Shown here: positions 21,641 to 59,106 of the stretch, piece by piece
Layout of the letters: each line of letters begins with the position of its first letter
How positions within the stretch are numbered: position 1 is the first letter of the stretch
Assembly: GCA_020628865.1 (NCBI GenBank)
Contig: JAHDEJ010000008.1
Coordinates: 1-64,000 of the forward strand
Direction of reading: 5' to 3'
Length of the DNA stretch: 64,000 nucleotides
From: Acidimicrobiales bacterium
GTDB lineage: Bacteria > Actinomycetota > Acidimicrobiia > Acidimicrobiales > SHLQ01
Notes under the pieces: model-generated
What the model saw: only the letters and a program-made list of their open reading frames with translations
Databases searched by the model: none
What the model was told of the DNA's origin: nothing
Program-made: the position numbers and the translations under genes

Positions 21641-22708
21641 CTAGGCGCCCAGCGCCGCCGCGATGCGATTGGCGTTCGCCCGAACCATGTCGAGGTACGT
21701 CGAGCCGTCCGAGTCGGCGTCGCCGAGCGACTCCGAGAAGAGTTCGACCACGTCGATGTCGCCCACTTCGTCGGCCAGCGTCTGAGCAAGCTCGTCCGAC
21801 GATGACGTGTCGGAGAAGATTGCTGCCACGCCTTCCGCCTGCACGATCTCAGCCAACTCTGCGAGCGCCTGGGCACTGGCGCCATCGGCGGTCGAACCGC
21901 CCGGGATGACCGCGCCGACGACCTCGAAGTCGTAGCGATCGGCGAAGTAGCCGAACACCTCGTGGTTTGTGACGAGCACTCGCTGCTCGTCGGAAAGGCT
22001 GGCGAGAATCTCCTCGACCTCGCTGTCCAGCGAGTTCAGTTCGGCGATGTAGGCGTCGGCCGATGTCCGGAGCGCATCGCCATCGATTCCCTCCACGTTC
22101 GCAATCAGGAAGTCGGCGATGCCATCGGCCGCGACGGCCATGCGGGCCGGATCGGTGAAGAAGTGAGGGTCGGCGCCGGAGTGATCGTGGTCGTCGTGCT
22201 CTTCGTCCTCGTCGTCCTCGTCCTCGTGGTCGTCGTGCTCTTCGTCCTCGTGGTCGTCGTGCTCTTCGTCCTCGTGGTCGTCGTGCTCTTCGTCCCCGTG
22301 ATCGTCATGATCATCGTGGCCGCCTTCGCCGAACTCGATGGTGCTGACCGTCGACATCGCCTCGTAGACCGGGATGCCATCGGCCTCGGCCTGTTCGATC
22401 ACATCGAGCAGGCCTTCTTCGAACGCTTCGCCGTTGACGATCATCGCCTGCGACTCACCGATGGCGGCCACCTGCTGGGCGGAGGCCTGGAAGTCATGCG
22501 GGTCGGCGCCGACCGGCATGATCGTCACGACGTTCATCTCGCTACCCACGAGGTTCTGCACCACATCGCCGAGAATATTCGTGGTGACGACCACGGTCGG
22601 GGCGTCTGCGGGAGCGTCGCTCGCCACCTCGGCGTCGCTTCCGCACGCAGCGGCGATGAGCGCCATGACGGCAAAGAGAACAAGAAGAGGGCTGAAGTGA
22701 CGACGCAT
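21641..22708 (-). CDS. znuA: Zinc-binding periplasmic lipoprotein with His/Asp-rich loop
   Basis: 355 aa, ATG at 22708. The lipobox is LIAAAC. The ZinT/ZnuA-like fold begins VVVTTNILGDVVQNLVG with the first ligand in VGADPHDF; further ligands are in SGADPHFFTDP, VTNHEVFGYFADRY and IFSDTSSS. Between the first and second ligands lies a long His/Asp/Glu-rich segment (roughly residues 135-190) with repeats of EEHDDHED. Such a loop is typical of zinc receptors and absent from most manganese receptors. Part of the loop is coded by three perfect 24-bp tandem repeats at 22220-22291. Confidence 0.9.
   Translation of the reverse strand: MRRHFSPLLVLFAVMALIAAACGSDAEVASDAPADAPTVVVTTNILGDVVQNLVGSEMNVVTIMPVGADPHDFQASAQQVAAIGESQAMIVNGEAFEEGLLDVIEQAEADGIPVYEAMSTVSTIEFGEGGHDDHDDHGDEEHDDHEDEEHDDHEDEEHDDHEDEDDEDEEHDDHDHSGADPHFFTDPARMAVAADGIADFLIANVEGIDGDALRTSADAYIAELNSLDSEVEEILASLSDEQRVLVTNHEVFGYFADRYDFEVVGAVIPGGSTADGASAQALAELAEIVQAEGVAAIFSDTSSSDELAQTLADEVGDIDVVELFSESLGDADSDGSTYLDMVRANANRIAAALGA
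22220..22291. repeat. 24-bp tandem repeat coding the His/Asp-rich loop
   Basis: Three identical 24-nt units (22220-22243, 22244-22267, 22268-22291) encode repeated EEHDDHED on the minus strand. The flanks contain degenerate copies. Perfect identity suggests recent slippage, so the loop length may vary between strains. Confidence 0.85.
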
Positions 22709-52514: not shown

Positions 52515-53642
52515 TCATCCGATCTGCGGCAGGCGGGCGGCAAATGCTTCGAGGCTCTCGAGATTGTTGCCCGAGGCAATCTCGTCGATGTGCGGGCCGA
52601 CCACGGCCATGGCGAGGGTTGGCGGAACGCCACCATTGGCGTCGTGCAGCGGGTTCATCCACACGATGCGATGCGAGAGCCGTTCGAGCTTCTCGATCGA
52701 TTCGGCGAGCGTTGCCGGGCTGCCCCGATCCAACCCGTCCGAGCAGATGATCACCGTGGCGCCACGGCTCAGGCCGCGGCGACCCCAGTCTTTGACAAAG
52801 GCGTCGATCGAGTCGCCGATCCGGGTTCCGCCGTCCCAGTCCATGACCTTGTCGGCGGCCAGACGCATCGCCGCATCCGGGCTGCGCCGATCCAGCAGCG
52901 GCGTGATGCGTGTGAGTCGGGTTCCGAAACAGAAGACCTCGACCTTCTGCGCCGCCCGTCGCATCGAGTACGCGAACTGGAGGAGGTTCCGGGAATGGTC
53001 CGCCATCGAGCCCGACACGTCGAGCAGCAGCACGAGTGGTCGGGGCTTTCGTTTGCGGTCCATGCGCAGCAGCGTCGGCGCGGCGTCGTTGATGGTCATT
53101 GCGCTTCGCGCCATCCGGCGCACGTCCACCAGCGAACCCGACGGGTCGGCGCAGTAGCGGCGGGTGCGCCGCTTCGGTGGTTCCACCCGGATCCGGGCGA
53201 TCATTCGACGGACTGCGGCGAGCTCCTCATCGGAACAGGCGGAGAAGCGCTTGTTCCGTTCGATCTCCAGCGACGATGCCTGGAGCCCCAGCACGAGCGG
53301 CGGTTCCTCCGACTCCCGATCTCCGGGCTCGGCATCCGGAAGGTTCACGGTGCCCGTCGACCCCTGCGGCGCGTGTCGCTCCTTCGTGTGCTTCCGCTCT
53401 GCCCCCACGGGTACGTGGAGGAAGAACCGGCGGAACACCTCGTCGTACACCGGTATGTGGTCGCGTCGGTTGACGAGCGTCGTCCGCCCGCACCAGTAGA
53501 CGTCCTCGGAATCTGACGGACGCAGCTCGGCGACCGCCGCGCAGAACGCAAGCACGTCGTCCGTGCCGATCGGGAGCCCGGCTTCGCGCAGCGCCGTGCC
53601 GAACCCAACCAGCCGGTCGACGATCTCTGGCGCAGCGCTCAC
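52515..53642 (-). CDS. VWA-domain protein of the CoxE type
   Basis: 375 aa. The GTG at 53642 lies one base after the MoxR ATPase stop; a long open frame runs further upstream but is coding in the ATPase frame. The C-terminal half is a von Willebrand A domain with an intact MIDAS: LLLDVSGSMADHSRNLL, the Thr-containing WDGGTRIGD and CSDGLDRG. The N-terminal half is the DUF58/CoxE-like helical part (RFFLHVPVGAE). CoxE acts with the CoxD AAA+ ATPase in maturing molybdenum hydroxylases, including insertion of the copper or sulfur of the Mo centre. Confidence 0.85.
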   Translation of the reverse strand: MSAAPEIVDRLVGFGTALREAGLPIGTDDVLAFCAAVAELRPSDSEDVYWCGRTTLVNRRDHIPVYDEVFRRFFLHVPVGAERKHTKERHAPQGSTGTVNLPDAEPGDRESEEPPLVLGLQASSLEIERNKRFSACSDEELAAVRRMIARIRVEPPKRRTRRYCADPSGSLVDVRRMARSAMTINDAAPTLLRMDRKRKPRPLVLLLDVSGSMADHSRNLLQFAYSMRRAAQKVEVFCFGTRLTRITPLLDRRSPDAAMRLAADKVMDWDGGTRIGDSIDAFVKDWGRRGLSRGATVIICSDGLDRGSPATLAESIEKLERLSHRIVWMNPLHDANGGVPPTLAMAVVGPHIDEIASGNNLESLEAFAARLPQIG

Positions 53643-53643
53643 G

Positions 53644-54534
53644 TCACCCGTTGGGGACGACGCGGGCGATGTCGCCGGAGACGAACTCCAGGTCGTCACG
53701 GTCCTTGATGACCGAGCCGAGCGTGTCGACGGCCGTCTCGCCATCGAGGTCGGCGGCGCCGATGGCGCCCAGCGACTCGACCCAGTCGAGCGTCTCGGCC
53801 ACGCCCGGCGGCTTGGCCAGATCCATGTCTCGCAGACGATGGACCGCATCGACCACCTTCTTGGCGAGCGCTTCGCTCACCTCCGGCGCCCGGACCCGGA
53901 CGATGTCGATCTCTTCGCCCACCGTCGGGTAGCCGATCCAGTGGTAGAGGCAGCGCCGCTTCAGCGCATCGTGGAGCTCTCGGGTTCGGTTCGAGGTGAG
54001 GATGACGATCGGCCGCTCCTCGGCCACGACGGTGCCGACCTCGGGAATCGTGATCTGAAAGTCGGACAGCAGCTCGAGCAGAAACGCTTCGAACTCGTCG
54101 TCCGCCCGGTCGACCTCGTCGATCAGCAACACGGCCCTACCCCCGGCCCGCACCGCCTGCAGCAGCGGCCGTTCAAGCAGGAAGTCCTCGGAGTAGAGGC
54201 CACCAATCGTGTCTGCATCGGCCAGCTCATGTTCCGACAGTGCTCGGACATGCAGCATCTGCCGGGCGTAATCCCATTCGTACAGGGCCTGATGCGTGTC
54301 GATGCCCTCGTAGCACTGCAGCCGGATGAGCTCGCGGCCCGTCAGCGCAGCCAGGCATTTGGCGAGCTCCGTCTTGCCGACGCCCACCTCGCCTTCGAGC
54401 AGCAGCGGCCGTCCCAGACGGAGGGCGATCAGGGCGGCAGTGCCGAGCCCGCGGTCAGCGAGGTAGCCCACCCCGCGAAGTTCGTCCTGCAGCTCTGCGA
54501 CGCTCGCCGGCGCCTGCTCCCCCGTGCCGGTCAC
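53644..54534 (-). CDS. MoxR-type AAA+ ATPase (CoxD-like)
   Basis: 296 aa from the GTG at 54534; upstream residues in the frame belong to the small gene before it. Walker A LLLEGEVGVGKTELAKCLA, a Walker B VLLIDEVDRADDEFEAFLLELLSDFQITIPE, sensor SNRTRELHDALKRRCLYHW and arginine-finger region are all present. This is the MoxR group, which pairs with VWA proteins; here the partner is directly downstream. In molybdenum hydroxylase systems the pair remodels the apo-enzyme to install its cofactor ligands. It overlaps the end of the 88-aa gene by 8 nt. Confidence 0.87.
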   Translation of the reverse strand: MTGTGEQAPASVAELQDELRGVGYLADRGLGTAALIALRLGRPLLLEGEVGVGKTELAKCLAALTGRELIRLQCYEGIDTHQALYEWDYARQMLHVRALSEHELADADTIGGLYSEDFLLERPLLQAVRAGGRAVLLIDEVDRADDEFEAFLLELLSDFQITIPEVGTVVAEERPIVILTSNRTRELHDALKRRCLYHWIGYPTVGEEIDIVRVRAPEVSEALAKKVVDAVHRLRDMDLAKPPGVAETLDWVESLGAIGAADLDGETAVDTLGSVIKDRDDLEFVSGDIARVVPNG

Positions 54535-54539
54535 GAACG

Positions 54540-54806
54540 TCAGTCGTTCGAATCGCCGAGCATGAGCTCTCGGATGGAGGGTGTCGACTCGGAGGAGAGC
54601 TTGCCCTCTCGCTTGAGCAGATCCTTCCACGCCGACCCGAGGTCTCCGCCGTCCTCGGCGATGCCCTCGAACGTGAACTCGCGAGCGTTCCGGCAGACCT
54701 TGGTCGGGCTGCAGTCCGCATCGGCGGCCGCTTCCTCGTCGCCGGCCCACACGTCTCGCAGGACGGTGCCGTAGTTCACGTTCGGTTCGTTCTCGTCTGC
54801 GGCCAT
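54540..54806 (-). CDS. Small protein of unknown function upstream of the MoxR ATPase
   Basis: 88 aa from the ATG at 54806. Acidic and soluble; the start AADENEPNVNYGTVLRDVWAG and middle ADCSPTKVCRNAREFTFEGIAED contain a CSPTKVC pair of cysteines four residues apart that might bind a metal. The C-terminus KREGKLSSESTPSIRELMLGDSND is charged. The close spacing to the MoxR gene (stop overlaps its start region) suggests a role in the maturation module. No family is recognised. Confidence 0.5.
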   Translation of the reverse strand: MAADENEPNVNYGTVLRDVWAGDEEAAADADCSPTKVCRNAREFTFEGIAEDGGDLGSAWKDLLKREGKLSSESTPSIRELMLGDSND

Positions 54807-54857
54807 GGGTCTGACTGTAGCGCGCGTCACATCAGACCGGCCGGGTCGAACCGACCG

Positions 54858-55727
54858 TCAGCCAGCGTCTGTGTTGCGGACGGCGATCATCTCGCAGACA
54901 ACCGAGAGGGCGACCTCTTCGGGAGAGCTTGCACCGATGGGGAACCCGGCGGGTCCGTGGATGCGGCTCGTGTCCGTGACACCTCGATACGCGAGCCAAT
55001 CGCCCCGATCCTCCTGGAGCGCCGCCGGACCGATCGATCCGATGTAGCCCACGCGGGAGCCGAGCGCAGCCTGCAAGACACGACCGACCGGCTCGGTGTC
55101 GTGCCCCATGACGACGATGCCGTCGATCGGCGACAGGGTCGGAGCGACCCCGATGGCATGCTCTGCGCCTCCTGTGCGTTGCACGTTCCAGCCGACGAAC
55201 TCGGCCGCTCGCCCGAGCGCGTCGGCCATCGGGCCACCGCCGAAGAGCACCAGGGTCGGGGTCGGGCTCCAGTCGCACCGAAGCCGTTCGCCGTCCAGGG
55301 TGAACGCCGCCGAAGTCGGCTCATCGCCGACCGCCAGCTCGGTGAGCCGCCCGTCCGCCACGGTTGCGTCCAGACGGACCGGCAACCGCTCGAGCAGTGG
55401 TTCCCAGATCGCTTCAGGCATCACGCTCGCCGGGCTGAAGACGATGCGGATCTGTGTGCCGGGTTCGGCACCGACCGCTGCGGCCTCGATGGCGTCGAGC
55501 TCGATCGGCACGATGCGCGCCTCGGTGGGTTCGGCGAGCGCAAGCTCGACCAGTCGGCTGTCCAGGGCTCCTCCGAGCAGCGAGCCGAGACGTCCGCCAC
55601 CGGGCGTGATCGCGACGGCGTCGGTGGCATCGAACGACGGTGTCTGCTCCGGATCGAGCGTCCACGCCACATCGACCCGGGTTCCCCCTCGGAGGCAGGC
55701 GGCCACACTCAACGCAATCCCGTACAC
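54858..55727 (-). CDS. xdhC: XdhC/CoxI family molybdenum-cofactor maturation protein
   Basis: 289 aa, ATG at 55727. The C-terminal Rossmann domain is clear: LVLFGGGPMADALGRAAEFVGWNVQ, GIVVMGHDTEPVGRVLQAALGSRVGYIGSIGP, and SRIHGPAGFPIGASSPEEVALSVVCEMIA. The N-terminal XdhC part is shortened and divergent (GGGRLGSLLGGALDSRLVELA). XdhC binds the molybdenum cofactor, mediates its sulfuration, and delivers it to the hydroxylase. Divergent from the nucleotidyltransferase gene, which shares the same short promoter region. Confidence 0.85.
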   Translation of the reverse strand: MYGIALSVAACLRGGTRVDVAWTLDPEQTPSFDATDAVAITPGGGRLGSLLGGALDSRLVELALAEPTEARIVPIELDAIEAAAVGAEPGTQIRIVFSPASVMPEAIWEPLLERLPVRLDATVADGRLTELAVGDEPTSAAFTLDGERLRCDWSPTPTLVLFGGGPMADALGRAAEFVGWNVQRTGGAEHAIGVAPTLSPIDGIVVMGHDTEPVGRVLQAALGSRVGYIGSIGPAALQEDRGDWLAYRGVTDTSRIHGPAGFPIGASSPEEVALSVVCEMIAVRNTDAG

Positions 55728-55760
55728 GCCCCCACCGTAGTGTTCGCTAACGTCGGCGGC

Positions 55761-56360
55761 ATGGTCGATCCCACGTCACCGAATGTCGCTGCGCTCGTGT
55801 TGGCTGCCGGATCATCCCGACGGCTCGGCCAGCCGAAGCAGCTCCTCCCCTTCCGAGGTGCCACGCTGCTCGACGCCACCATCGCCACGGTTCGGGGCTT
55901 CGGCCTTGCACAAACGCTGGTCACCATCGGCGGCGCCGCTCCCGAGGTGCAGGACACCGTCGACCTCTCTGCGGTGCAGGTCGTCGACAGCCTCCACCAC
56001 ACCGACGGATGCTCATCGTCGATCGTCTCCGCACTCGATGCCATCGACTCGAGCGTCGACGGCTTCATGCTCTTCCTCGGCGATCAGCCCGACGTGCCTC
56101 GGGCCGCGGTCGATGCGCTGCTCGGTGTTGCGGAAACGGGAGCCGAGATTGCCGTCGTCGACTACGACGACGGCACGGGCCATCCGTTCTGGTTCTCGCG
56201 TTCCGTCTTTGGGCCGCTCGGCGGACTCCATGGCGACAAGGCCGTTTGGAAGCTCCTCGAATCCGGCCGCTTCGAGACGGCACACGTCCGAGTCGAGCAA
56301 CCGGTCCCCCTCGATGTCGACACCTGGGACGACTACCAAGCACTCCTCGCCCACGGGTGA
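55761..56360 (+). CDS. MobA-like NTP transferase (molybdenum cofactor cytidylyl/guanylyltransferase type)
   Basis: 199 aa, ATG at 55761. The nucleotide motif is ALVLAAGSSRRLGQPKQLLPFRG, followed by MLFLGDQPDVPRAAVDALLG and GTGHPFWFSRSVFGPLGGLHGDKA, the pattern of MocA/CoxB-type transferases that make the cytidylylated cofactor used by xanthine dehydrogenase-family enzymes. With XdhC, CoxD and CoxE it completes a maturation set. It ends 5 nt before a 50-nt hairpin that probably terminates it. Confidence 0.82.
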   Translation: MVDPTSPNVAALVLAAGSSRRLGQPKQLLPFRGATLLDATIATVRGFGLAQTLVTIGGAAPEVQDTVDLSAVQVVDSLHHTDGCSSSIVSALDAIDSSVDGFMLFLGDQPDVPRAAVDALLGVAETGAEIAVVDYDDGTGHPFWFSRSVFGPLGGLHGDKAVWKLLESGRFETAHVRVEQPVPLDVDTWDDYQALLAHG

Positions 56361-56365
56361 ACCGG

Positions 56366-56415
56366 GGGGTCGCGTCTCACCTTCACCCGTTTGGGTGAAA
56401 GTGAGACGCGACCCC
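56366..56415. repeat. Hairpin repeat, family A, single unit
   Basis: A near-perfect 23-bp stem (GGGGTCGCGTCTCAC at 56366-56380 with GTGAGACGCGACCCC at 56401-56415, inner arms TTCACCC/GGGTGAA) with a GTTT loop. It lies between two convergent genes, so it may end both transcripts. The same sequence recurs at 56833-56957. Confidence 0.85.
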
Positions 56416-56425
56416 TTCACCCGCT

Positions 56426-56749
56426 CTACATACCCATGTCGATGGTCTGCGAGATCTGGACGGAGTGGCCGTTGGCCAGTACGGGACTGCCTTCGGCAAT
56501 CGCCGTCGCCGCGGCGAAATCGTCGCATTCGATGATGGTGTAGCCGCTGAGCTTGGCCGGAGCATCGGTGGCGCCGTCGGTGCTGATGGCGGTCGACATG
56601 GCAATCGGTGCGCCGCCATCCACCAGGGCGGCACCCATGCTCTCGTACCACGCCCCCCATTGCGCCATGACCGCCTGCACCGCTTCCGGGTCGGATGGCA
56701 TGTCTTCCATGTTCATCTCGCCGTGATAGGTCAACAAGTACTTCGGCAT
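56426..56749 (-). CDS. YCII-related domain protein
   Basis: 107 aa, ATG at 56749 with GGGGAAG upstream. It begins PKYLLTYHGEMNMEDMPSD, has VMAQWGAWYESMGAALVDGG and the GYTIIECDDFAAATAIAEG segment with a late LANGHSVQI. This is the YCII/DGPF-like fold of small dimeric proteins, some linked to sigma-factor or kinase operons. Function unknown. Unusually, hairpin repeats of one family flank the gene on both sides. Confidence 0.75.
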   Translation of the reverse strand: MPKYLLTYHGEMNMEDMPSDPEAVQAVMAQWGAWYESMGAALVDGGAPIAMSTAISTDGATDAPAKLSGYTIIECDDFAAATAIAEGSPVLANGHSVQISQTIDMGM

Positions 56750-56832
56750 CGCTACTTCCCCCTCTGTGGTCCTGTCGCCGGACGCTAGTTCCCGAGGCCG
56801 CAAGCGCGCCACCAGGTGAAACAGGATCCTTG

Positions 56833-56957
56833 GGGGTCGCGTCTCACCTTCACCGGTTTGGGTGAAAGTGAGACACGACCCCTTCACCCGATTGGGTGGA
56901 AGTGAGACGCGACCCCTTCACCCGATTGGGTGAAAGTGAGACGCGACCCCTTCACCC
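56833..56957. repeat. Hairpin repeat, family A, tandem array
   Basis: One left arm (56833-56854) is followed by three right arms of a 34-bp unit: 56861-56882, then full units at 56883-56916 and 56917-56950, and a final TTCACCC. Each full unit has an inner TTCACCC-GATT-GGGTGAA hairpin followed by GTGAGACGCGACCCC. The units differ at only one or two bases. The array lies upstream of the YCII gene. Confidence 0.85.
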
Positions 56958-56959
56958 GG

Positions 56960-57427
56960 TCAGTCGTTGTCGGTGAGGCCTGCTCCGGCGCCGGCGATTC
57001 GGCTGGCTTCGGTGTCGGGGGCGTAGGTGTTGTGGGCCCAACCCTCGAGCGTGTCCAGGGTGGCGGGGTCCAGGTCGACCCGATCGTGACGGTCCTCTGG
57101 GCGTGGGGCTTCCGGTAACAGCAGCGTGGGCTCGAACACCGGGCCCAGCTCGACATCCGGTAGGCCCAGATCACGAAGGCAGGCACCGACACAAATCGGG
57201 CACGCCGTGCCCCCCGGGGCAACCCAGTTGTCATCCGGCATCAGCTCTGCAAGCTCACGCCCCTCGACGGCATCCAAGAGACGAGCAACCGCCGCGCCGG
57301 CGTCCTCACCGCACTCCGCAAGCGTCCGAGCCGCGGCTGCACCATCCTCGGCCAGACCCCACGGATATCCGGCACCGCGGAACGCCTTGCGGACCAACGC
57401 CTGGAACTCGCTGAGCGAGAGGTTCAT
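56960..57427 (-). CDS. DUF3726-like protein
   Basis: 155 aa. The ATG at 57427 overlaps the stop of the 560-aa gene (ATGA). The N-terminus LSLSEFQALVRKAFRGAGYPWGLAEDGA matches the DUF3726 opening (aromatic-positive helix, then GxPWGLAE). A CPICVG pair and a downstream ELGPVFEPTLLLPE complete the visible pattern. It is shorter than typical family members (about 220 aa). Role unknown. The conserved-looking gene order with the next two genes argues for a shared process. Confidence 0.55.
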   Translation of the reverse strand: MNLSLSEFQALVRKAFRGAGYPWGLAEDGAAAARTLAECGEDAGAAVARLLDAVEGRELAELMPDDNWVAPGGTACPICVGACLRDLGLPDVELGPVFEPTLLLPEAPRPEDRHDRVDLDPATLDTLEGWAHNTYAPDTEASRIAGAGAGLTDND

Positions 57428-59106
57428 GCAGCCGAACCGTCGACGAGGTCCGGGTAGGTCCACGTGTCGGGATCGAGTTCGCCCAGCTCATGCGGGAACG
57501 GCGCGCCCCGGAACATCGTGATTCGCACCCACCGGTCCGAGCGGGGATCGAAGTCGGTCGCACCGAAGAAGCTCAACTTCGAACGAAGCAGATCGATCGG
57601 CAGCATCTCGGCGTCGATCGTGTTGTCCCGAATCTCGCCGTACGGCGAGTCGGCAACCAACAACAGGCGCCGGACCGTGTGCCGGTGTTCGGGATGGGCC
57701 CGCAGCACCTCTGCCACCGTGGCTCCGTCGTCCCAGGCCACCAGGTCCGCGTGCAGGCGGGCGGCGTCGCGGCCCGGTTGGAGCGGCTGCTCGTAGTCGG
57801 CGATCGGCTCCTCGTGGCGTTCACCCAACCGCGGCTCCAGCTTCTCCTCCGACACGTACCAGGCGCGGGCGTCGGCCCGGGGTTCGGTCCAGTCGATGCC
57901 GAGGGCCCAGTCGTACTGGCGCTCGATCGCCGGACGAAGCTCCGCAACGGTCATGGCCCCGTCGATCGACCCGAGGGACGACTCGTCCGCATGCATGTGG
58001 TCGGTCAGATCGTCGACCAGGTGGCCGTACGGCTCGAGCACGAGCGACACGACGAGCTCCTGCCCCTCGAGCGAGAGCGCCTCGTGCGCCCAACGCACCA
58101 AGGCATCCCAGGGTCGATCTGCCGTGAGGTCCTGCTCGTCGAGTCGAGCGAGCAGGGCGTCGACATCGGCGGTGAGGTCGACGAGCTTGGCCTGCTGAAT
58201 CTCGTGCTCCGAATGCCAGCGGGCAACGCCGCGCTCGGCTCGGGCGACGAAACTGCGGAACATGGCGATCTCGGCGTCGGTCGCACGGTCCACCGCACGC
58301 ACTCGGGCCAGTGCTTCTTCACGCGCCGCGATCCAGTTGTTGATGAGGCGCGGATGCGTGATGAGGAACGGCGCCATGCCAAGGCCCGTGCTGTTCCCGA
58401 TGCCAAACCGCCGGCGAAGGGCGGGCTCCAGTACCACGGCATCACGTGAGGCCTGGTGCGCCATGTACTCCACGAGATCCATCACGAAGGTCCGAATGAG
58501 AAAGACCGTGAGCATCTCGGCCTGGAACGGGGCGAGGAACTCGGGCCGATCCTCGATCGACTGACGGTCCGCCGCACCGAACTTGCCGCTGCCATAGACG
58601 GCGGTTGTGCGCATGAGGTAGCCCACTGATTCGATCAGCTCGGCGTCAGGTTGGCGGCCGGCAGCGAGTGCGTCGACCACCTTGGACCACAGACGGACCG
58701 AACGATTGGCGCGGGAGAGCGTGAGCTCGGAACCCGACACCCGGCCCGCTTCCTGAAGCGGGACGTTGGCCCGCAGCCGCTCGACGTCTTCATCCTTGGG
58801 GATGCCGTCGTGCAGGGCAAAGGTGGTGTCCCACGCGGTGGCGATGACGCGGTCGGAACGCATGTCGTCCGGCAGGTCGTGGGCGAACGCCACGAGCGTG
58901 TAGGTGCGCTCCGGCGTGGTGGCCGTGTAGAGCGCCGTGCCGACGCCATCGGCGTCGATGTCGAAACGTGGCCGCTCAAACACCCACGCCTCCCGTTTCA
59001 TTCGTCGCAGCAGCGTGCGCATGAACGAAAGGCGGCACTGATGGAACGAGCCCATCCGATCGAGCTTCATGACGAGCTCGGGCGGACGCAGTTCAACCGT
59101 GCTCAC
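57424..59106 (-). CDS. Large uncharacterised protein, 560 aa
   Basis: A GTG at 59106 overlaps the dipeptidase-like stop (GTGA). Soluble with no signal peptide. It opens LRPPELVMKLDRMGSFHQCRLSFMRTLLRRMKRE, continues with a DUF-like beta region (DIDADGVGTALYTATTPERTYTLVAF), and is helix-rich later, with several Arg/Asp-rich stretches. It contains no P-loop, HExxH or other clear catalytic signature. The C-terminus is translationally coupled to the DUF3726-like gene. It may be a scaffold or a divergent enzyme of an M19-like/560-aa/DUF3726 operon. Confidence 0.55.
   Translation of the reverse strand: MSTVELRPPELVMKLDRMGSFHQCRLSFMRTLLRRMKREAWVFERPRFDIDADGVGTALYTATTPERTYTLVAFAHDLPDDMRSDRVIATAWDTTFALHDGIPKDEDVERLRANVPLQEAGRVSGSELTLSRANRSVRLWSKVVDALAAGRQPDAELIESVGYLMRTTAVYGSGKFGAADRQSIEDRPEFLAPFQAEMLTVFLIRTFVMDLVEYMAHQASRDAVVLEPALRRRFGIGNSTGLGMAPFLITHPRLINNWIAAREEALARVRAVDRATDAEIAMFRSFVARAERGVARWHSEHEIQQAKLVDLTADVDALLARLDEQDLTADRPWDALVRWAHEALSLEGQELVVSLVLEPYGHLVDDLTDHMHADESSLGSIDGAMTVAELRPAIERQYDWALGIDWTEPRADARAWYVSEEKLEPRLGERHEEPIADYEQPLQPGRDAARLHADLVAWDDGATVAEVLRAHPEHRHTVRRLLLVADSPYGEIRDNTIDAEMLPIDLLRSKLSFFGATDFDPRSDRWVRITMFRGAPFPHELGELDPDTWTYPDLVDGSAA

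Follow-up and report, generated by a model that had tools for sequence, protein, structure and literature searches.

A dispersed repeat on both sides of a YCII-domain gene in an uncultured Acidimicrobiales genome is probably derived from a resident RAYT-type transposase gene

Introduction

Why would one short repeat stand on both sides of a small YCII-domain gene? The question is raised by the window, the whole stretch of 64,000 nucleotides of Acidimicrobiales DNA that was analysed, in which a hairpin and a tandem array built from one common unit enclose a 107-aa YCII gene. A preliminary description of this locus had proposed an inserted or amplified REP-like element, which might mark a mobile unit or serve as terminators and mRNA stabilisers.

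Results

Two repeat sites are built from one unit

The hairpin consists of two inverted repeat units that form a near-perfect structure with arms of 23 nt (96% complementarity) and a loop of 4 nt (Table 1). RNA folding of positions 56355-56425 gave z-scores of -8.7 (+ strand) and -10.5 (- strand), with none of 200 shuffles as good, and the 50-mer folded as single-stranded DNA had a z-score of -10.5. Tandem Repeats Finder reported 3.3 copies of a 34-nt period at 56847-56958 which, together with the repeat search, upholds the array start first given (56833) and moves its end by one base, from 56957 to 56958. The presence of the same sequence on both sides of the 107-aa gene, and its 34-nt period, were thus confirmed by repeat search, folding and shuffled sequences. 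Across the whole window, the arm pattern TTCACCCNNNTGGGTGAA with up to 3 mismatches has 12 matches against 1.1 expected, a number reached in 0 of 100 shuffles, and all 8 matches with up to 2 mismatches fall in the hairpin and array. Searched by itself with 3 mismatches allowed, the 15-nt core shows no excess over the whole window (11 matches against 8.75 expected); all six of its matches with 0-1 mismatches are in the two sites.

The hairpin occupies the convergent gap between the MocA-like gene and YCII, and the array the gap between YCII and the DUF3726 gene. The YCII assignment is barely above the Pfam threshold (24.4 bits, cut-off 24). Positions 52515-56360 carry CoxE, an AAA ATPase (CoxD-like), XdhC and the MocA-like gene, a molybdenum-hydroxylase accessory block that is kept in several relatives. 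An Rfam search of 55000-58000 gave three matches up to an E-value of 1, all far under their gathering scores, and no Rfam family was accepted. An unrelated 24-nt tandem array of 5.5 copies is found elsewhere in the window, at 22185-22317.

Table 1. Repeat sites and adjoining genes, in window coordinates.
Feature	Position	Strand	Details
MocA-like NTP transferase gene	55761-56360	+	TGA stop (56358-56360) within a GGGTGAA heptamer, repeat-arm-like
Inverted pair (50-nt hairpin)	56366-56415		cores 56366-56380 (-) and 56401-56415 (+), gap 20 nt
YCII-domain gene	56426-56749	-	107 aa; between the repeat sites, outside the repeat family
Array	56833-56958		inverted core 56833-56847 (-), then three direct + cores with 34-nt spacing: 56868-56882 (one mismatch), 56902-56916, 56936-56950
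DUF3726 gene	56960-57463	-	stop directly adjoins the array

The unit can be written as GGGTGAA-A-GTGAGACGCGACCCC-TTCACCC followed by a 4-nt spacer, 34 nt in total. In the fetched sites of the window's own genome and in the window itself, the distance between same-orientation neighbours is exactly 34 nt in 30 of 41 cases, and all 13 inverted pairs share one orientation, with their CCCC ends outward and, in 12 cases, a 20-nt gap. The layouts of the family are such inverted pairs, 34-nt direct arrays and singles. Single array units fold weakly as DNA (z-scores of -0.8 and -1.0 for one copy, -1.3 and -2.6 for another), which makes a single unit a poorer candidate for a folded substrate than the inverted pair. 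The tetranucleotide GT[AG]G is absent from the palindrome foot of the consensus CCGTTTGGGTGAAA-GTGAGACGCGACCCC-TTCACCC.

The repeat is dispersed through the genome

A genome-wide search revealed that the repeats are not confined to the YCII locus. In the 5.36 Mb genome to which the window belongs (G000; G014 and similar labels denote other members of a 19-genome family set), the 17-nt core with up to 2 mismatches has 98 matches, against 1 for the reversed control. The family comprises about 100 short repeats at about 40 sites, mostly intergenic, two of which lie in the window. The fetched loci and the window together hold 46 core clusters (a set that leaves out one match at the end of contig C42), 41 with arms and 5 without. 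Four of the armless clusters look like chance matches; the fifth (L040 2465) is probably genuine but decayed, because its counterpart in G014 carries arms. The armed clusters lie between two called genes in 36 of 41 cases, with 4 at edges and 1 within a called gene. The 36 intergenic sites are in 21 tandem, 9 convergent and 6 divergent gaps, after one correction by hand (the hairpin gap of the window was changed from tandem to convergent because the gene caller had missed the MocA-like gene; distances were kept as called), and 76 gaps that lack the repeat and measure 60 nt or more divide into 42 tandem, 11 convergent and 23 divergent. This dispersal, the intergenic location and the transposase gene described below support "REP-like" as a description of the element.

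Six copies of the core GTGAGACCTGACCCC, the G017 type, occur inside arrays of the window's own genome (L040, L048, L051 and L057). Contig C433 of G014 (L182) stops exactly where the G000 sequence enters a repeat, an indication that the repeats interrupt assembly. The repeat family explains hairpins and some contig ends in assemblies of uncultured Acidimicrobiales.

A RAYT-type transposase gene is flanked by the repeat

Another contig of the same genome, C108, carries a 337-aa ORF for a Y1/HuH, IS200-like transposase of RAYT type with repeats of the window type. Repeat cores stand on both sides of this ORF with their CCCC ends outward, and its stop codon falls within a repeat arm. The Pfam profile Y1_Tnp matches the protein with 36.2 bits (cut-off 23), and H82-x-H84, Y141 and N145-P146 (the HUH and Y---NP motifs) are invariant in 11 aligned proteins. 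The NCBIfam model NF047646 (REP_Tyr_transpos) scores 62.1 bits, under its cut-off of 80, which relates the protein to that family below the naming threshold; the RAYT-type name therefore rests on Pfam, the motifs and the context. The C-terminal block is conserved in the alignment and is HTH-like by eye; no Pfam match to a C-terminal HTH (Bac_DnaA_C, HTH_23 or HTH_28) was obtained at E-values up to 5, and a sequence search of solved structures gave none at E-values up to 0.1. Plasmid homologues (20 records) were set aside, as all have less than 60% identity and none covers 80% of the query.

Y1_Tnp was located at four places in the genome by Pfam and at five by protein search. The other four RAYT-type genes each have their own, different flanking repeat, namely a GGGGTCAGACCCC-type repeat at C81 (L060), a AGGTGCCAGGCACCT-type repeat at C101 (L059), a 43-nt inverted repeat at C96 (L189) and a 32-nt direct repeat at C112 (L188). 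The transposase gene has a further motif at its 5' end, GGGGTCTGACAC in G000 and G014 and GGTCTGACACGAC in G012 (L089 at about 2500-2511, L090 and L092), which is possibly regulatory.

Repeat and transposase occur together in relatives

In a genome collection of 84,980 species, an exact 22-nt pattern was found in two Acidimicrobiales MAGs only, with 25 stretches and 1 stretch, by a search that may omit records closely similar to that of the window. Contig numbers and positions lead us to infer that the MAG with 25 stretches is G014. Among the 19 family genomes, core matches with up to 1 mismatch number 89 in G000, 61 in G014 and 14 each in G013 and G015; three genomes have 2, 1 and 1, and 12 have 0. 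A close copy of the transposase is present in G014 only (91% identity over residues 16-337, repeat-flanked), and all further homologues in the family genomes have at most 48% identity. G014, whose loci were fetched for carrying the repeat, is the only other repeat-rich genome of the 19 and the sole bearer of a close transposase copy. Neither G013 nor G015 has a close C108 orthologue, and the listed G013 matches are mostly an A-first variant of the core.

The transposases of relatives are accompanied by variant cores. A G015 transposase (44% identity) is flanked by the A-first variant and a G017 transposase by GTGAGACCTGACCCC, which occurs 26 times in G017, six times in G000, three times in G018, twice each in G014 and G007, once in G010 and not at all in the 13 others. 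Across 26 transposases from the 30 loci L089-L118, a core-like 18-mer is found on both sides in 17 and on neither side in 3 (L104, L112 and L118), and the outward 18-mers of the two sides are within one mismatch of each other at 10 of the 26 loci. Core distance correlates with protein distance in permutation tests that ignore host relatedness. For all 23 of the 26 transposases with a core, r was 0.470 or 0.276 depending on the side (0 and 4/20,000 permutations); for 20 without near-duplicates it was 0.354 or 0.303 (2 and 20/20,000), and for 13 long transposases 0.477 or 0.552 (5 and 0/20,000). A set of 19 with hand-picked cores (the 26 minus the three without a core and, by choice, L105, L107, L114 and L115) gave 0.441 (0/20,000), and nine hand-picked long transposases gave 0.553 (46/20,000).

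We consider it probable that a RAYT-type (Y1/HuH) transposase gene resident in this genome gave rise to the repeats, which would be non-autonomous copies of its terminal repeat; the C108 ORF is the likely source of the family. The transposase, which we infer to move the repeats, would recognise the core on single-stranded DNA, most likely in the strongly folding inverted pair, and would cut and rejoin it, thereby seeding the sites. Arrays might then grow by transposase action, replication slippage or recombination. Any influence on YCII and the genes beside it is probably incidental. A bolder proposal, to which we give somewhat less than even odds, is that in Acidimicrobiales a 34-nt repeat is spread and lengthened by a long RAYT similar to subclass 2.1, and that transposase and core centre (GCG, CCT, CTT, CCC or TCT) co-diverge by lineage, so that the recognition code of a Y1 nuclease could be read from them. 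The natural pairs of transposase and repeat found in a single bacterial family, which differ by a few bases in the core, provide a direct test set for the specificity of RAYT-like Y1 enzymes.

The YCII gene and the repeats as one unit

The repeats could instead mark a mobile unit, in which YCII and the two repeat sites were relocated together, the gene having moved between the repeats or via recombination at them. Both YCII borders in the window bear repeats, and in G012 and G015 YCII lies at the opposite end of the CoxE-CoxD-XdhC-MocA block, a position consistent with the gene having moved in one of the lineages. However, the stretch past MocA also varies in relatives without the window repeat, so a breakpoint here needs no repeat: this stretch differs among most of the nine relatives compared, with shared neighbours only between G013 and G015 and between G003 and G016, plus a weaker match between G003 and G005. 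In the sole repeat-rich sibling, G014 (67% complete), YCII, MocA and DUF3726 are all without a match, and the two window sites are built differently, one as a pair and the other as a four-core array. We therefore regard a relocated unit as unlikely.

A YCII match is present in 10 of the 18 other family genomes. The fetched YCII loci of other genomes contain no repeat core with up to 2 mismatches, and none of them keeps the order of genes found around YCII in the window. The comparison with relatives suggested by the preliminary description thus yielded YCII without the core; as no fetched relative keeps the window order, it did not yield the gene without repeats in an unchanged context.

Host gene-end elements and slippage

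The repeats might also be kept by the host as gene-end elements that terminate transcription or stabilise mRNA 3' ends, in which case a transposase would not be needed. Inverted pairs give strong hairpins, facing gene 3' ends lie at a median of 30 nt (38 values) and facing 5' ends at a median of 78.5 nt (34 values; medians taken by hand from called-gene lists), and 9 of the 36 intergenic sites (one corrected by hand) are in convergent gaps, against 11 of the 76 repeat-free gaps. Yet a terminator scan of 55700-57500 made a single call, at 57212-57198 on the - strand and away from the repeats, and found no T/U-tract at the repeats themselves. This tells against the terminator function first suggested, with room left for Rho-dependent or hairpin-only effects. 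Moreover, 6 of the 36 sites are in divergent gaps, and the core changes by lineage together with its transposase. These observations make host gene-end elements a highly improbable explanation of the family, and the host may make secondary use of its members.

Copy number was compared at sites shared with siblings. Two-sided matches in repeat-bearing sibling loci were obtained for 19 of 43 clusters, of which 9 have equal and 10 different core numbers, with 3 of the 10 differences doubtful: L044 and L032_2 (in both, the alignment cuts the segment) and L057_0 (third core with 3 mismatches). The sequence of L052 includes Ns. The differences at L031 (68 nt, two units) and L039_3 (33 nt) are the only ones close to whole units; one-core differences at L034, L038, L042 and L056 measure 42, 67, 26 and 198 nt. 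No empty site or fresh insertion was seen among the compared repeat-bearing loci, a sample that favours shared sites and was unlikely to reveal an empty one, because the loci were fetched for carrying the repeat. Searches for empty sites found L036 split over two G014 contigs, one of which stops at the repeat, and, for L050, nothing beyond repeat-sized matches in G014. The earlier notion of an amplified array holds to the extent that siblings can differ in core number where they share a site. A further reading is that slippage duplicated the unit locally in tandem and that the resemblance of the two window sites is due to chance or to local duplication. It would fit the exact 34-nt period and the 68-nt difference between L031 and its sibling. 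Slippage cannot, however, carry the core to about 40 places or to the flanks of a transposase gene; as an explanation of the family it is extremely improbable, though it may be a cause of array length.

Discussion

Comparison with known repeat systems

A literature search by name, rather than by repeat sequence, returned no report on "REP-associated tyrosine transposase" in Actinobacteria; for repetitive extragenic palindromic sequences, the available portion of PMC12306157 names Acidimicrobium ferrooxidans in a table and never mentions RAYT. The accessible text of Nunvar et al. (2010, PMC2817692) describes REPs headed by GT(A/G)G, and every RAYT that satisfied its criteria is gammaproteobacterial. 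With the RAYT/REP and REPtron arrangement of that text, our system shares a transposase between inverted repeat copies, repeat abundance tied to the transposase, co-divergence, and several families per genome. Like canonical REPs, the repeats are short, multicopy and mostly extragenic, but the window repeats have no GT[AG]G head or tag. A REPIN consists of two inverted units that give one long hairpin. The inverted pair in the window resembles this arrangement (PMC3116915, in the part available); unlike REPINs, the family includes singles and direct arrays, which equal or exceed inverted pairs in frequency.

The C108 protein resembles TnpA_REP subclass 2.1 (RAYT group 1), as presented in the available part of PMC6006769, in being a long Y1 protein with HUH and Y---NP motifs and a C-terminal block. 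Since no HTH profile matches, we place it in subclass 2.1 tentatively, on sequence features. According to the same part of that article, no REP-like sequences were found next to genes of subclass 2.1, whereas the C108 gene is linked to a repeat of about 100 copies. It would seem that long RAYTs, a type reported to lack REP-like repeats, can be associated with a family of that size.

Judged by sequence, the best fit for the family appears to be the TIR repeats of TIRYT transposases. In the available text of Di Nocera et al. (2013, PMC3733652), TIRtrons (TIRYT) have a RAYT-like Y1 gene with inverted repeats that lack GTAG, and TIR repeats form families, dimers or clusters, some of which, not all, share an outer GGGGWSAS. 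The C108 Y1 gene similarly stands between inverted, outward-facing cores without GTAG. The window core GGGGTCGC agrees with GGGGWSAS at 7 of 8 positions, one base off, and GGGGTCAG in the relatives G012, G017 and G018 fits the motif. Unlike the TIRs in that portion of the article, the repeats described here form regular 34-nt direct arrays, and their host is actinobacterial, a group whose name ("actinobacteria") does not appear in the same text. Overall, this looks like a lineage-specific, transposase-linked repeat family of uncultured Acidimicrobiales, ordinary in kind and a version of a known type of bacterial repeat.
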